Origin: Haloplanus ruber
Lineage (GTDB): Archaea > Halobacteriota > Halobacteria > Halobacteriales > Haloferacaceae
Length of the DNA: 64,000 nt
Assembly: GCF_024494725.1 (NCBI RefSeq)
Contig: NZ_JANHDK010000001.1
Location: 1-64,000 of the forward strand
Direction: 5' to 3'
This document shows positions 50,713 through 60,783 of the stretch, piece after piece. The notes beneath the pieces were generated by a model that was given only the letters and a program-made list of their open reading frames with translations, was not told the origin of the DNA and ran no database searches. The first letter of the stretch is position 1; each line of letters opens with the position of its first letter. The translations under genes and the position numbers were made by a program.

Positions 50713-51207
50713 CTACAGTTCTCGCTTCGTCTTCTCGGTCACCCGCACGTCGCGAATCGCCGTGTCGGGGTACTCGCCGTCGGCGTCCTTTTCGGCGGCT
50801 TTCACCATGTCCCAGACGACGTTTAGACCGGTCGTCACGCCCTCCAGCGCCTCCATCTCACAGCCCGTCTTGCCGGTCGTCTCGACGGTGACGGTCAGCG
50901 TCACCCGATCCTCGTCGACCTCGAAGTCGGTCTCGACGTTCGTGATCGGAATCTGGTGACACATCGGGATCGTCTCCCAGGTGTGTTTCACCGCCTGGAC
51001 GGCCCCGACGCGGGCGGTTGCCAGCACGTTCCCTTTCCCGATGTCGTCGTCGCGGATGGCGGCGACCGTCGAGGGCTGGAGGTGGATCGCCCCCGCGGCG
51101 ACCGCGCGGCGCGCGGTGTCGGGTTTGTCGCCGACGTCGACCATCTGGACGTTGCCGTCGTCGTCGGTGTGGGTCAGGTCGTCGCCGGCGTCGGCGTCGT
51201 CACGCAT
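50713..51207 (-). CDS. moaC: Cyclic pyranopterin monophosphate synthase MoaC
   Basis: 164 residues. It converts the MoaA product to cyclic pyranopterin monophosphate in molybdenum cofactor synthesis. Family motifs are VDVGDKPDTARRAVA, GNVLATARVGAVQAVKHT, IPMCHQIPI and EMEALEGVTTGLNVVWDMVKA. It begins 8 nt inside the nnr gene, so the two are coupled. Confidence 0.95.
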   Translation of the reverse strand: MRDDADAGDDLTHTDDDGNVQMVDVGDKPDTARRAVAAGAIHLQPSTVAAIRDDDIGKGNVLATARVGAVQAVKHTWETIPMCHQIPITNVETDFEVDEDRVTLTVTVETTGKTGCEMEALEGVTTGLNVVWDMVKAAEKDADGEYPDTAIRDVRVTEKTKREL

Positions 51208-52639
51208 CGACACCACCCCACAGAGTCCGCGGGAGTTCGGGCAACAGATCACTCGCCAGCAGGCCGTACCCCTGGCGGTCGACGACCCGGTCGCCCGCGA
51301 GGCCGTTGGCGTAGGCGGCGAGGGCACCGGCGTCGACCGGCCGCTGTGTCGAGAGGAGCGCACCCGCGGCGCCCGCGAGGACGTCCCCGGTGCCGCCGAC
51401 GGTCATCCCGGGGTTGCCCGTCCGGTTGACCCGCGCCCGCTCCCCGTCGGTGATCACGTCGTGGGCGCCTTTCACCAGCAGGGTGTGGCCCAACTCGGCC
51501 GCGAAGTCGGCGACAGCGTCGAGTCGGTCGCGCCAGTCGTCGGCACTTGGGCCGCCCATTCCCCGGAGTTCGCCCTGGTGGGGCGTACAGAGGAGCGTCG
51601 CGTCGGTGTCGACATCGGGGACGACCCCGAGGGCGTCGGCGTCGACCACCGCCCGGCCATCGTAGTCGGCGAGGAAGTCCCGCACCGCCGCGAGCGTCGC
51701 CTCGTGGTCGCCGAGACCCGGGCCGAGGACGACGGTGTCGTGGGCGGCGGCGAGTTCCTGGACGTGCTCTAGGTGGTCGATCCGGAGTCGGTCACCGTCG
51801 AACGGCCGGACGATCAACCCCTCCTCGAATCCCTGGACCTCACTGGCGACAGCCTGCGGGCAGGCCACCCGCACCAGGTCGGCGCCGGCGCGCATCGCCG
51901 CCTGCCCCGCGAGCGCCGGTGCGCCGGTGTAGGGGCCGCCGCCGACGACGAGCACCTCGCCGAACGCACCCTTGTGTGCGTCGGCCGGCCGGGAGAGCAG
52001 GCGGCGGTCGCCCGGCCCCGTGAAGCGTTCGGCCGCCTCGGGGATGCCGATGTCGGCGACGGTCACCGTCGCGTCGAGAGGCTCCAGTCCGGGTTTGGCG
52101 TCGTGGAAGGTGACGACGTGGTCGGCGTCGACGGCGACGCCCGCGGCCTCGCCGGTGTCGGCGTCGACGCCCGAGGGCACGTCGACGGCGACGACCGTCG
52201 CGTCTGTCCCGTTGATCGCCTCGACTGCCGTGCGTTCGGGCTGACGGGGCGCCCCCGTCACGCCCGTCCCCAAGAGGGCGTCGACGACGACGTCGGGGTC
52301 GTCGAGCGCCAGCGACCGGGAGTCGCGGACGACCCGCGTCTCGTAGTCGGCGGCGGTCAACGCCGCCCAGTTCTCGCGGGCGATATCGGTGCCGATGCTC
52401 TCGGGGCGGCCGAGCAGATGGACGGTCACGTCGTCGCCGTCGAGAAAGCGGGCGGCGACGAAGGCGTCGCCGCCGTTGTTGCCACGGCCACAGACGAGGG
52501 CGACGGCGGCGCCGGGGTCGGCCACCCGCTGGACCACCCTCGCGACGGCGTTCCCGCTCGACTCCATCAACTGTTTGCGCGGAACCCCGAGGGCGGCCGC
52601 GTTCTCGTCGACGGCCGCCATCCGGTCTGCGGTGATCAT
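51200..52639 (-). CDS. nnrD: Bifunctional NAD(P)H-hydrate epimerase/dehydratase
   Basis: 479 residues. Residues 1-210 are the YjeF epimerase (GRGNNGGDAFVAARFL, DVPSGVDADTGE). Residues 220-479 are the carbohydrate-kinase-like dehydratase (GGPYTGAPALAGQAAMRAGADLV, GNPGMTVGGTGDVLAG). It repairs damaged NAD(P)H. Downstream it overlaps moaC by 8 nt; upstream it diverges from the MFS gene. Confidence 0.95.
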   Translation of the reverse strand: MITADRMAAVDENAAALGVPRKQLMESSGNAVARVVQRVADPGAAVALVCGRGNNGGDAFVAARFLDGDDVTVHLLGRPESIGTDIARENWAALTAADYETRVVRDSRSLALDDPDVVVDALLGTGVTGAPRQPERTAVEAINGTDATVVAVDVPSGVDADTGEAAGVAVDADHVVTFHDAKPGLEPLDATVTVADIGIPEAAERFTGPGDRRLLSRPADAHKGAFGEVLVVGGGPYTGAPALAGQAAMRAGADLVRVACPQAVASEVQGFEEGLIVRPFDGDRLRIDHLEHVQELAAAHDTVVLGPGLGDHEATLAAVRDFLADYDGRAVVDADALGVVPDVDTDATLLCTPHQGELRGMGGPSADDWRDRLDAVADFAAELGHTLLVKGAHDVITDGERARVNRTGNPGMTVGGTGDVLAGAAGALLSTQRPVDAGALAAYANGLAGDRVVDRQGYGLLASDLLPELPRTLWGGVDA

Positions 52640-53956: not shown

Positions 53957-54565
53957 ATGTCAGGGCTGTTACCGTCACAGACGGACGGGGACGTGAGTGC
54001 GGAGGGCGATGGTGAGCTCCGCGTGCTGTCCCTGACGGACGACGACGCCGAAGACCTCATCGGCTCGATTTCGTCCGAGACGGCCCGTTCGATCCTGACC
54101 GCCCTAGAAGAGCGCCCTGCGACCGCGTCGGAACTCGCCGAGACGGTGTCGACCTCCCTCCAGAACGTCCGGCACCACCTCGGGAACCTCGAAGAGGCCG
54201 GGTTGGTCGAGGTGGCCGACACGCGATACTCGGTGAAGGGGCGCGAGATGAAGGTGTACGCCCCCACCCAGGACTCGCTGGTCGTCTGCGTGGGCGCGGA
54301 GGAAAACAAAGAGCGCTTTCTCGACTCACTGGAGCGGTTCGTGGGCGCCCTCGCCGTCATCGCGGTGGGGGCGCTTGCGGTCCAGCGAGCGTTCGGCACC
54401 GGCGTCGTCGACCTCGGCGGCCCCGGGACGGCGCCTCGCGTCGGCGACAGCGTCGGGAGCGCCGGTGGACCGCTTCTCGGTCTCGTCCCGCCGGGGGTTG
54501 CCTTCCTCGCTGGCGGCCTTCTCGTCCTCTCGCTGCTCGTCGTCTGGGACTACTACCGTCCCTGA
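53957..54565 (+). CDS. Membrane-anchored HTH regulator (ArsR-like)
   Basis: 202 residues. Residues 35-100 form a winged HTH (ETARSILTALEERPATASELAETV, QNVRHHLGNLEEAGLVEV). Then come two membrane segments (RFVGALAVIAVGALAVQRAF and PLLGLVPPGVAFLAGGLLVLSLLVVW). This pairs a DNA-binding head with a membrane anchor. The start is 28 nt after GTTTTTACC. The subtilase-like gene begins 6 nt downstream of its stop, so they form an operon. Confidence 0.85.
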   Translation: MSGLLPSQTDGDVSAEGDGELRVLSLTDDDAEDLIGSISSETARSILTALEERPATASELAETVSTSLQNVRHHLGNLEEAGLVEVADTRYSVKGREMKVYAPTQDSLVVCVGAEENKERFLDSLERFVGALAVIAVGALAVQRAFGTGVVDLGGPGTAPRVGDSVGSAGGPLLGLVPPGVAFLAGGLLVLSLLVVWDYYRP

Positions 54566-54571
54566 TCTGCC

Positions 54572-56284
54572 ATGTTCGATGCCTCCACAGCGCGTATCGC
54601 CCTCCTCGCGTTCGTGGTGGTGCTCGCGTTCGCACAGCCGGTTCCATCTTCGGTCGCCGGAGACGAGGCGACGGCAGCCACCTCGGACGGCGACGTCGGA
54701 CCGACAATCGGCTCGGCCGTCCAGCGGCATCCGTCGAGCGCCGGGGCGACGGCCGACGCGCTCCGGTCGGTGCGTGCCGACGCGGTCCACGAGCGTGGCC
54801 TCACGGGGTCGAACGTCCAGGTGGGTGTCATCGGTCGCGGCTTCGAGACGGGCAGTCGCGTCCTCGCGCCCCACGTCGTCGCGCGTCGGCAGGTCGGCGG
54901 TGGTCCGGGGTCGACGGCCCACGACACCGCCGTCGCCGAGGTGGTCTCCGAGACGGCGCCGTCGGCCGACCTCTATCTCGCGGGCGTGGGGCGGACGCCG
55001 ACGCCCGCGGAGTACGCGGCCGCCGTCGAGTGGCTGACCGACCAGGGGGTCGACGTCGTCGTCGACTCCGGGAGCTACTTCCCGAGCGTCGCCGGTGACG
55101 GCGGACAGATCACCGCCGCCGCGGAGGCGGCGGCGGCCGAGGGCGTGGTCTTCGTCACTTCGGCGGGCAACTACGCCGACCGTCACTGGGCCGGAACGGG
55201 CACCGCCGACGGCTGGGTCAGCTTCGCCGAAGACGACGCGGCCAACCACCTCGCGGACGGCGCGCGCGTTCGAGGGCGCGTCACCGCTCGCCTGCGCTGG
55301 GCGTCCGCCGCCGACTACGACCTCTATCTCTACCGCCGCCTCCCGAACGCTCCCGACCGCGTCGTGGCGAAGTCGGCGGCCGACGACGCCAGCCCGGGGA
55401 TGACCGTCGAGGGCATCGACGTCGCAGTCCCCCAGGGACGGTACTATCTCGCCGTCTACGCCGCCGACCCCGTCGCCGCTCCCGGTCGCGTGCAGGTGTT
55501 CGCCGCCCACCACGAACTCGAACACGCCACCGCCCACGGAAGCATGGTCGCGCCCGCGACGAGCGAACAGGTCGTCGCCGTCGGCGCGGCCGCGAACGGC
55601 GAGCGGACGGCGTACAGTTCCCTCTCCGAGAACGGCACCGTGGATCTGCTCGCGCCGGCGGACGCCGGCACGCAAACTGCCGACCTCGACGGGACGTCGG
55701 CCGCCGCTCCCTACGTCGCCGGCACCGCGGCGCTGATGGCGTCCGGCGGCAACGACCCCTCGCCGGAACGCGTCGAGGCCATCCTCGAACGCACCGCCGA
55801 CGGCGACGGCGGGTCCATCGACGCTCTCGCGGCCGTCGAGGCGACGCGTAGCCCCGACGACCCGGCCGGTACTGCCGGCATCGGCGATCCGGAAACTGAC
55901 GCCGGCGTCGACGACTCGGCCACCGCGACGACCGACCGCGCGGCGGGTGCCACCGCGTCGACGGAGTGGCCGGCGCGGAACCGATCCGACGACGGCACCA
56001 GCAACACCACCCGCGACGACGGCGGCGTGCGTCCCGTCGGGTCGGAGGCGGACGACGAGGAGAATGCGAACGGAAGCGCGGACGAACGCTCGGACGCCGG
56101 GCAATCCGGCAGCGATACCAACGGGAGCGAGGCTGGCGGCCGTGAGGAGGCCGGCAACGACACCGACCGAAGCGAGGCCGGCAGGGACGACCAAGCACGC
56201 GACGACCGGACGGGGACGACGGACGACGGCGACCGACGCCGTGCCGGCGCCGGGGACGACGGTGGGCAGGCTAGTGTCGGATAG
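54572..56284 (+). CDS. Subtilase-like (S8) protein lacking the catalytic Asp
   Basis: 570 residues. A signal peptide (MFDASTARIALLAFVVVLAFA) precedes a subtilisin fold. The His (H117, STAHDTAVAE), oxyanion Asn (N200, VTSAGN) and Ser (S376, DGTSAAAPYVAG) sites are present. At the usual Asp (VIDTG) it reads V86-I-G-R-G, so Gly88 replaces the Asp. An insert between Asn and Ser carries a beta domain (residues 205-320). The C-terminal 170 residues are Asp/Gly/Ser/Thr-rich and unstructured. It may be an exported pseudoprotease or a protease with an altered triad. A DUF5658-like gene follows after 36-39 nt. Confidence 0.82.
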   Translation: MFDASTARIALLAFVVVLAFAQPVPSSVAGDEATAATSDGDVGPTIGSAVQRHPSSAGATADALRSVRADAVHERGLTGSNVQVGVIGRGFETGSRVLAPHVVARRQVGGGPGSTAHDTAVAEVVSETAPSADLYLAGVGRTPTPAEYAAAVEWLTDQGVDVVVDSGSYFPSVAGDGGQITAAAEAAAAEGVVFVTSAGNYADRHWAGTGTADGWVSFAEDDAANHLADGARVRGRVTARLRWASAADYDLYLYRRLPNAPDRVVAKSAADDASPGMTVEGIDVAVPQGRYYLAVYAADPVAAPGRVQVFAAHHELEHATAHGSMVAPATSEQVVAVGAAANGERTAYSSLSENGTVDLLAPADAGTQTADLDGTSAAAPYVAGTAALMASGGNDPSPERVEAILERTADGDGGSIDALAAVEATRSPDDPAGTAGIGDPETDAGVDDSATATTDRAAGATASTEWPARNRSDDGTSNTTRDDGGVRPVGSEADDEENANGSADERSDAGQSGSDTNGSEAGGREEAGNDTDRSEAGRDDQARDDRTGTTDDGDRRRAGAGDDGGQASVG

Positions 56285-56320: not shown

Positions 56321-56707
56321 GTGGTGACCCGCCGACAGATCTCCGAGTCCCAGATCGAGGAGTACTGGGATTGGATCGCCGTCGCGCTCTTTCTCCTGCT
56401 CGCGGTCGACCTGCTGACGACGCTCGCGGCGGCGCGGGTCGTCGGCCACGGCGCCGAGGCCAACCCGCTGATGCGGTGGTTGATCGACCGGCCAACGCTC
56501 GTCGTGATCGGTGCCCACCTCGTCGTCGTGGTGCTTGTCACCGGCTGTTTCCGCCTGCTCGTCGGTCGCCTGCGACGAACGCCGTCGCCGGCCGACTACT
56601 ACTTCGCGCTCCTGATCGAGGGGTGGCTGGGCACTCTCGTCGCCGTCGGTCTCGGCGTCTTCGCCAACAATCTCGCGGTGATCGTGTTGGGTCGCAGCCT
56701 GCTTTGA
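56321..56707 (+). CDS. DUF5658-like membrane protein
   Basis: 128 residues, or 127 from a second GTG at 56324. Three to four hydrophobic helices are seen, with DLLTTLAAARVVGHGAEANPLMRW, the EANP-type motif of the DUF5658 family. Function unknown. It follows the subtilase-like gene closely and may belong to the same unit. Confidence 0.72.
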   Translation: MVTRRQISESQIEEYWDWIAVALFLLLAVDLLTTLAAARVVGHGAEANPLMRWLIDRPTLVVIGAHLVVVVLVTGCFRLLVGRLRRTPSPADYYFALLIEGWLGTLVAVGLGVFANNLAVIVLGRSLL

Positions 56708-59397: not shown

Positions 59398-60783
59398 TTA
59401 AATCCCGCTACCTCGGTCGGCGAGCGACGGCGACCGGGGGTGAGACGGCTGGATCGTCGCCCGCGCCGGCGGGTCCGTGATCGTCCGCTCGCGGCCACCG
59501 GGCCAGCGCACCGTGACCGCCTGCGGCGTCGCCGACCCGAGGCCGAAGTGGGCGACGGGTTCCATCTGACAGAGGTAGCCACTCCCGCCGTCGACGATTC
59601 GAGTCTGTCGGCCGGCGTCGGTTCGGAGTGTCACCCGGGCGCCACGCGCCGGGGCGCCGGCCGGCGTCTGTGGCACCACCCGGAGCCACCCGCCGTCGTT
59701 GGGGGCGCTGTACAGCGAGAGCGGCTGTGCCTCGGCCTCGCCACGAACCACGAGCAGTTCCAGGGTACCGTCGCCGTCTAAGTCGGCGACGGCGGCGCCG
59801 GTGCCCATCCCTTCGGGTTCGAGGGCATCGCCCACGTTCGTCTGTGTCCAGCCGTCGTCGCCGTAGGTCAGCAGGCGGTTCGGCGCGCCCAGACAGTTGA
59901 CGAACAGTTCCGTCCGCCGGTCGTTGTCGAAGTCGGCGGCGACGACGGTACGGACCCGTGCCGGGCGCGCGAGCGCCGACGGCGCGCCGTCCTGAAAGTG
60001 ATCGTCATCGCGCGCGAACAGTCGGTTCGCGCCGTTCCAGTTGCCACAGACGATACCGGGAGTCAGGGCGCCGTCGGGCGTCACGAGCGCCGCCCCACGG
60101 GCGTTCTCGTCGGGGTCGGCGACGCCGTACTCCCGAGCCACGTCGACGTACTTCCCGCCGACGTTCCGCAGGAGCAGGTTCGGCCCTCGTTCGGCGCCGA
60201 CGAACACGTCCGTCCGTTCCGAGAGGATTGGGCCGGTGGCGACCGACCGGCCGCCGGTGACGACGTCTAGGCCGACCGCGTCGGCGAGGTCAGTGATCCC
60301 GCCGTCGTCGCCCACCTCGTAGAAGCGCGCGGGAGCGCCGTAGCCGGTGACAAAGAGGCCGTAGCGACCAGTTCCGAGGCGGTCGACGGCGGCGACCGAG
60401 CGCCCCACGCGATAGTTCGCCCGACCCTGATTCACCGGATCGGCGAAGAGGTCACGCCACCGGTAGCCCTCGCCCTCCGGATCGAGGAGGAGGTCCGCCT
60501 CGGCGGAGGTGCCGCCGAAGGCGGCGACGTTGTGGACGTACACCTCCTCTCGGCCGTCGGCGTCGAGGTCGGCCGCGGCGACGCCGATGGCGTGGCGGCC
60601 ATCGTCGGCGAGGACGCCACAGGCGGCGTTGACGACGCTACCGTCCTCAAACCGGAGGACGCGGTTGGCGTTGCCGAACCCGGCGACGAAGACAAGAGGA
60701 CCGTCCGACCCGGGAGTGACGGCTGCGCCGTAGCCCCGAAAGGGCGGGTTGTCGGCGAATAGGCCCGAACGGTCCTCGAACAT
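59398..60783 (-). CDS. FG-GAP/ASPIC-UnbV repeat protein without signal peptide
   Basis: 461 residues. Several FG-GAP-like beta-propeller repeats (AAADLDADGREEVYVHN, AADFDNDRRTELFVNCLG, AVADLDGDGTLELLVV) contain Ca2+-binding-type D-x-D-x-D loops. The C-terminal ASPIC/UnbV domain (RGARVTLRTDAGRQTR, ARFGLG-like HFGLGSA, VRWPGG) ends the protein. Relatives (CRTAC1-type) are normally secreted, but here the protein begins directly at the first propeller blade. It may act in the cytoplasm, or be exported by an unrecognised route. Confidence 0.85.
   Translation of the reverse strand: MFEDRSGLFADNPPFRGYGAAVTPGSDGPLVFVAGFGNANRVLRFEDGSVVNAACGVLADDGRHAIGVAAADLDADGREEVYVHNVAAFGGTSAEADLLLDPEGEGYRWRDLFADPVNQGRANYRVGRSVAAVDRLGTGRYGLFVTGYGAPARFYEVGDDGGITDLADAVGLDVVTGGRSVATGPILSERTDVFVGAERGPNLLLRNVGGKYVDVAREYGVADPDENARGAALVTPDGALTPGIVCGNWNGANRLFARDDDHFQDGAPSALARPARVRTVVAADFDNDRRTELFVNCLGAPNRLLTYGDDGWTQTNVGDALEPEGMGTGAAVADLDGDGTLELLVVRGEAEAQPLSLYSAPNDGGWLRVVPQTPAGAPARGARVTLRTDAGRQTRIVDGGSGYLCQMEPVAHFGLGSATPQAVTVRWPGGRERTITDPPARATIQPSHPRSPSLADRGSGI

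Follow-up and report, generated by a model that had tools for sequence, protein, structure and literature searches.

The transcription factor SREBP is held in the membrane as a hairpin. It has a loop on the far side, where a subtilisin-like partner, site-1 protease (S1P, MBTPS1), is located; a site-2 protease also belongs to the system. S1P possesses the full Asp-His-Ser triad and cuts. Mutation of the P4 Arg at S1P sites abolishes cleavage, as described in PMC11231238. Proteins of the S8 (subtilase) fold with a degenerate triad and signalling partners are also known: in CspC and CspA of Clostridioides difficile, which act in spores, two catalytic residues are mutated, as outlined in PMC6636752 and PMC12880746. 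In the laboratory, anion-triggered subtilisins have been engineered by changing residue 32 (6ube and 3f49); these have Gly or Ala at the site of Asp32 and keep His64 and Ser221. Here we analyzed a stretch of 64,000 nucleotides from Haloplanus ruber (NCBI RefSeq assembly GCF_024494725.1, contig NZ_JANHDK010000001.1, positions 1 to 64,000 of the forward strand; hereafter the window) and describe an exported subtilase-like protein without the catalytic Asp, P0001, together with a winged-helix regulator, P0002, encoded directly upstream. Co-inheritance of P0001 with the membrane part of this regulator suggests an unrecognised signalling switch across the membrane.

The P0001 pair resembles SREBP and S1P in that a transcription factor is predicted to be anchored by a membrane hairpin whose loop is outside (from hydropathy and a low-confidence AlphaFold 2 (AF2) model, the orientation being deduced) and in that a subtilisin-like protein is found on the far side. 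It differs in that the regulator is an archaeal winged-helix protein, the two genes are adjacent, and P0001 is without the Asp, cleavage by it being only proposed. We treat the likeness as an analogy and claim no common descent; the pair was not assigned to the S1P/SREBP system because the complete triad is lacking. Compared with CspC and CspA, P0001 has lost only the Asp and is paired with a membrane regulator. The residue-32 subtilisins are laboratory designs, whereas P0001 is natural and an anion dependence is only proposed for it. Among the titles and abstracts listed in a search of the open-access literature (subscription papers being outside its scope), none reports such a pair or a haloarchaeal subtilase without the Asp. 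A conserved exported subtilase with a membrane-held regulator, present in haloarchaea other than Haloferax, would be a candidate outside-to-inside switch, and the pair is a more interesting object than the Asp-less subtilase alone. Members with and without the Asp, each having a partner of the same type, form a natural series in which the role of the catalytic Asp, and whether brine can replace it, can be tested directly.

Catalytic residues of P0001 and their conservation

The P0001 gene (54572-56284, + strand) is an open frame of 570 amino acids that matches the Peptidase_S8 profile PF00082 with 62.9 bits against a cut-off of 21.8 (E = 4.1e-17). The S8 domain, which includes a PPC-like insert, spans residues 58-430 (54743-55861, +) according to the AF2 model and the fold match. 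Residues 55-432 were modelled from 63 aligned sequences with a mean predicted local distance difference test score of 92.3 and a predicted template modelling score (pTM) of 0.90, and the model superimposed on subtilisin chains with a Z score of 34.5 and a root-mean-square deviation of 2.0 over 246 residues. The base His117, which is followed by Asp118 (54920-54925, +; Asp118 matches Gly65 of subtilisin), the oxyanion residue Asn200 (55169-55171, +) and the nucleophile Ser376 (55697-55699, +) are all present where a preliminary description of this DNA had placed them; in the model His117 occupies position 2 of a helix, and Ser376 does likewise in its own helix. At the Asp site the protein reads VGVIGRGFE. 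Gly88 (54833-54835, +), which closes strand 1 of the model, is aligned by phmmer with residue 32 of subtilisin, so that the reported replacement of the catalytic Asp by Gly was confirmed. The top sequence match in the PDB is 6ube, itself a residue-32 mutant named D32G in PMC7935941, and the top Foldseek match is 3f49. By profile and fold, and by His117, Ser376 and Asn200, P0001 agrees with S8, while the catalytic Asp on strand 1 is absent; it is a fold relative of S8 that is non-canonical as a peptidase.

Gly88 is not a sequencing error, because orthologues within the genus (10 of 12 genomes, its own included) all read VGV[IV]G[RQ]GF at this place. A pseudogene was likewise ruled out by the orthologues in the genus and by the ratio of nonsynonymous to synonymous substitution rates (dN/dS), which for the core of the protein was 0.25-0.38 against five orthologues from the same genus.

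Relatives were searched for in the genus (10 of 12 genomes with matches, E 1e-10), the family (56 of 170, E 1e-30) and the order (101 of 392, E 1e-25), and one further relative, L040, came from a Methanophagales record. The 123 loci obtained, for which part of the 101 matching order-level genomes was fetched, gave 109 distinct archaeal rows and an alignment of 372 columns; the trait columns were left out when the tree was constructed. Asp occupies position 88 in 50 rows and Gly in 55, while Ala, Val, Thr and Ser are each found in a single row; 59 rows are therefore without Asp. His117 and Asn200 are present in 109/109 rows and Ser376 in 108/108, one row being cut off at that point. Only six of the 372 columns are invariant (H117, G199, N200, V337, G374 and S376), and all of these except V337 are active-site residues. 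Even though Asp is absent from 59 of the 109 rows, the rest of the catalytic machinery is thus the best-kept part of the protein.

Asp165 (55064-55066, +), which corresponds to residue 124 of subtilisin, defines a clade of 68 of the 109 rows and requires one change on the tree, as against nine for Asp88. This clade consists of 50 rows from the family of the window (f1), hereafter the window's clade, and 18 rows from other families. Gly88 is fixed in 49 of the 50, on a clade tree whose length amounts to 15.6 changes per column; the fiftieth, L020, has Asp88 and is placed inside the Gly clade, where the forks are partly open. The 18 rows from other families differ in having Asp88 in 15 cases (the other three, which belong to family f5, have Gly), Gly after His in 18/18 and an N-terminus of prodomain size; the Asp-bearing members from f3 and f4 share with P0001 the residue Asp165 and a regulator of like kind, the loop of which has the Arg described below. 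Outside the Asp165 clade Asp88 is present in 34 of 41 rows. Loss of the Asp is a family trait and no local mutation. The preliminary description had named homologues with Asp at this site as one finding that would refute its reading; such homologues do exist (50 of 109 rows), L020 inside the Gly clade among them.

Seven S8 paralogues outside the Asp165 clade also lack Asp and keep His, Asn and Ser: L002 (Ala), L100 (Thr), L110, L121 and L123 (Gly), L056 (Val) and L120 (Ser). L002 is encoded in the same genome as P0001 (C1:948404-949711), where the census of S8 genes gave three: P0001, L002 and L003, which has Asp. The laboratory host Haloferax volcanii did not appear among the control genomes matched by PF00082. 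L003 (C4:224681-225778) is followed by a two-helix regulator of its own, L126, forming a second, differently ordered module.

The distance from the signal segment to the residue-88 site has a median of about 150 residues in the 18 rows of f3-f5, about 80 in the window's clade and about 66 in the sister clade, which is mostly Asp-bearing. By eye, the additional N-terminal stretch of the f3-f5 members is of subtilase-prodomain size and looks I9-like; Pfam recognised no I9 prodomain in the six of these members scanned (L073, L078, L081, L086, L088 and L093). Loss of the Asp and loss of this stretch were not one event, because three Gly88 members (L073, L075 and L080) keep the long N-terminus.

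The adjacent regulator

The P0002 gene (53954-54565, + strand) encodes an ArsR-like winged-helix regulator of 203 amino acids if translated from GTG (an ATG is present at 53957), and its stop at 54565 is six bases ahead of the ATG of P0001 at 54572. The protein matches HTH_20 (PF12840, E = 6.5e-16) and HVO_1552_C (PF24267, E = 4.8e-8). Hydropathy predicts two membrane helices, at 54299-54394 and 54491-54556 (both +), to which AF2 helices 115-146 (longer than the hydrophobic part) and 179-200 correspond. Between them is a predicted outer loop (54395-54490, +) that contains the conserved motif P-R-[VI]-x-D, with the Arg codon at 54437-54439 and the Asp codon at 54446-54448. The AF2 model, with a low overall pTM of 0.44, shows a confident DNA-binding domain, the two helices and a disordered loop of low confidence. 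If the DNA-binding domain is inside the cell, the loop would lie outside.

Regulator and subtilase genes are adjacent on the same strand in all 68 rows of the Asp165 clade, the regulator being upstream in 67 and part of one interrupted frame in L039. In the sister clade it is downstream of the subtilase in 30 of 31 rows, and within the fetched flanks none of the 10 outer relatives has it. The loop Arg is present in 67/67 pairs of the Asp165 clade and the Asp in 64/67 (L039 left out). The loops of the sister clade have this Arg in 0/30 and contain PAS in 21/30.

As a control, 20 full-length regulator paralogues were picked by eye from family genomes in which no Asp165-type subtilase was matched; L147, described below, was the one further full-length regulator taken from such genomes. 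Two hydrophobic helices are present in each of the 20, whereas a subtilase match within about 5 kb and the pattern PR..[DEQ] are absent from all of them. The hairpin by itself is consequently not tied to the subtilase, whereas the loop motif is.

Two-helix paralogues with neither a PRxxD loop nor a nearby subtilase match are L125, from the P0001 genome (C1:1306715-1307335), and L157-L176. In one Halolamina pelagica genome (L039, L069) the regulator and a cut-off subtilase share one interrupted frame; the subtilase looks broken there, unless the assembly is in error.

Joint loss of the hairpin and the subtilase

In some genomes of the family, the locus corresponding to the window's own is without the subtilase and gives only a short regulator match. 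Among the matches listed there are at least 21 such short rows, of which 19 were fetched (G046:C706 and G092:C34 were left out). At all 19 loci the regulator stops after the DNA-binding domain and has no hydrophobic helix, and the downstream helicase gene is kept; the proteins end near the domain border with the DNA-binding domain still open. Two of the loci, L128 and L129, are from the window's genus, with genes for DUF5658 and the helicase downstream. On a poorly resolved tree the short regulators are nested within the long ones, which requires a minimum of five changes. Conversely, the hairpin is missing in 0 of the 68 pairs of the Asp165 clade. Repeated loss near the domain border, together with the absence of a hairpin-less pair, points to a shared function.

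Matches labelled 'MFS' to about residues 1-110 of a query were rejected as MFS genes, since that part of the query overlaps, on the opposite strand, the gene at 51200-52639 for NAD(P)H-hydrate dehydratase. The helicase therefore served as the sole synteny mark for the 19 loci.

In the window's genus, and in several other genera, the gene for the small membrane protein DUF5658 (56321-56707 in the window) is located between those of the subtilase and the helicase, and it stays in place in L128 and L129. At another locus two frames occupy the place of the subtilase (L147:17-2768); the nearer one is partly masked and by eye similar to the outer one, which is TnpB-like (PF07282, E = 6.8e-18).

Candidate substitutes for the catalytic Asp

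Two acids near the active site are conserved in the window's clade, Asp118 (44 of 50 rows) and Asp165 (50 of 50). Asp165, invariant in its clade, closes the neighbouring strand (model residues 108-111). Residue 124 of subtilisin, to which it corresponds, lies beside residue 31 in the core contacts given in PMC11593635 (N of residue 31 with O of 123; O of 124 with N of 152). Thr196 corresponds to residue 151 of subtilisin and is Thr in 67 of 109 rows. From these contacts we infer that Asp165 points to the side opposite Asp32, alongside residue 151; it was rejected as a new catalytic acid and is treated as structural. Asp118 is the better candidate, because Gly65 of subtilisin touches the acid loop (O of residue 34), according to the contacts in PMC11593635, and residue 124 would be on the opposite face.

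A relocation of the sedolisin type was ruled out. In the S53 motif, as given in PMC11593635, Glu replaces His, an Asp is found four residues further on, and Asp replaces Asn155; P0001 has His117, Val121 and Asn200 at these places.

An ordinary active protease in which Asp118 has taken over from Asp32 would agree with the distribution of this residue: each of the 44 rows with Asp118 has Gly88, none of the 50 rows with Asp88 has Asp118, and L020, the Asp88 member inside the Gly clade, has Gly118. However, within the Asp165 clade Gly118 is found in eight members that have Gly88, and outside it in all seven Asp-less relatives. Moreover, side chains of neighbouring residues (i, i+1) rarely bond in the way needed. 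Such a moved triad acid is unlikely.

A third candidate is an anion. Haloarchaea live in molar chloride. According to PMC7935941, nitrite or azide activates subtilisin D32G, and formate and chloride at 10 mM do so weakly.

Proposed mechanism and alternatives

We propose that two genes form a membrane signalling module, of which P0001 is the exported half and the winged-helix regulator, held in the membrane by its two-helix hairpin with the short P-R-[VI]-x-D loop outside, the other. The substrate cleft of P0001 would recognise this loop, and in this way a condition outside the cell would be reported to the regulator. Most likely P0001 would still act on this single partner as a slow serine protease that does without the usual Asp, and the space left by the fixed Gly may be filled by an anion, such as the molar chloride of the brine, or by Asp118. 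A second cut could be made by M50 (site-2 type) proteases of the same genome, in which PF02163 was matched over the cut-off; because PF02163 was also matched in 14 of 14 control genomes, their presence is weak support. Four such proteases of unknown function are listed in a review of Haloferax membrane proteases (PMC9263693). Coupling of the two genes is very probable, and direct engagement of the loop by P0001 seems fairly likely. Chemistry retained without Asp we consider evenly balanced, and the account taken as a whole might equally prove right or wrong. It is doubtful, though conceivable, that haloarchaea have their own regulated proteolysis of a transcription factor held in the membrane, with an exported subtilase acting on its PRxxD loop, and that one large lineage employs a slow Asp-less enzyme, chloride-dependent or assisted by Asp118, the brine being part of the active site.

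What the computation shows is that the pairing is conserved, that loop residues are invariant, that hairpin and subtilase were lost jointly at one locus, and that of the catalytic residues only the Asp was lost; the position of the loop outside, its contact with P0001, cleavage, a substitute acid and the output are proposed. Several points weigh against this mechanism. Freeing the DNA-binding domain would take more than a cut in the loop; a second protease would be needed. The eight Gly88 members without Asp118 speak against a general role of that residue. The two-helix hairpin needs no subtilase, as the 20 paralogues demonstrate, and Asp165 arose only once with the loop motif following the same clade, so that their match counts as one event. 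L147 has a full regulator, with hairpin and loop Arg (the loop Asp is Asn), and no subtilase match. The hairpin-coding DNA is contiguous with the subtilase gene, and for this reason one deletion can remove both without any functional coupling. Finally, loss of the Asp in a clade without a prodomain-sized N-terminus is what decay of activity would look like, although the sister clade, which is mostly Asp-bearing, also has a short N-terminus. The contiguity of the DNA, the two-helix regulators with no subtilase nearby and the only moderate purifying selection on the core of P0001 could be accommodated if it were an ordinary decaying secreted protease that shares an operon with the regulator, the joint losses being single deletions of neighbouring DNA. 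Such loose linkage is nevertheless very improbable in our view: the pairing is kept in two gene orders (98 of 99 rows), the loop Arg is invariant in the pairs while the motif is absent from the unpaired paralogues, and at 19 of 19 loci the shortened regulators keep an open DNA-binding domain and stop close to its border.

A closer alternative is that P0001 never cuts and binds the loop, or a ligand, in the manner of a receptor, the S8 fold serving as a scaffold. Such a sensor would be compatible with the nine changes of Asp88 on the group tree, with the short N-terminus of the window's clade and with a loop motif kept both with and without Asp88, and CspC and CspA provide a precedent, as these pseudoproteases form a signalling node according to PMC12880746. 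The preliminary description, the reading of which is partly supported, had likewise suggested a pseudoprotease receptor or else the use of another acidic residue, for which Asp118 is a putative candidate. The receptor-like signalling part of that suggestion gains from the co-inherited membrane regulator, which the description did not include. With His and Asn (109/109) and Ser (108/108) kept, a protein that is simply a dead protease is a poorer fit: at least one catalytic residue has been lost, as in a pseudoprotease, and the constraint on the remaining ones is not relaxed. The invariant His, Asn and Ser and the fixed Gly lead us to rank slow Asp-independent cleavage of the loop by P0001 slightly higher than pure binding; the non-cutting sensor is the somewhat less probable of the two and nearly as likely as cleavage.

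Other features of the locus

The N-terminus of P0001 contains, by eye, a predicted Sec-type signal peptide at about residues 1-29 (54572-54658, +), a hydrophobic segment with no twin Arg and no Cys lipobox; about 25 residues separate it from the S8 domain. The insert between Asn200 and Ser376 (about residues 201-320; 55172-55531, +) is beta-rich according to DSSP of the AF2 model and looks PPC-like: PF04151 was matched below the cut-off in two relatives among ten proteins scanned, P0001 not being one of the ten (E = 0.0019 and 0.021). The acidic low-complexity tail (residues 431-570; 55862-56281, +) is a fast-evolving, loosely constrained extension with a dN/dS of 0.6-0.8 against the same five orthologues. 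Both had been thought unusual, but the insert is common to Asp-bearing relatives and the tail varies in length. Further downstream in the window, at 59398-60783 on the - strand, an FG-GAP repeat protein with an ASPIC/UnbV domain is encoded (PF07593, E = 3.9e-20).
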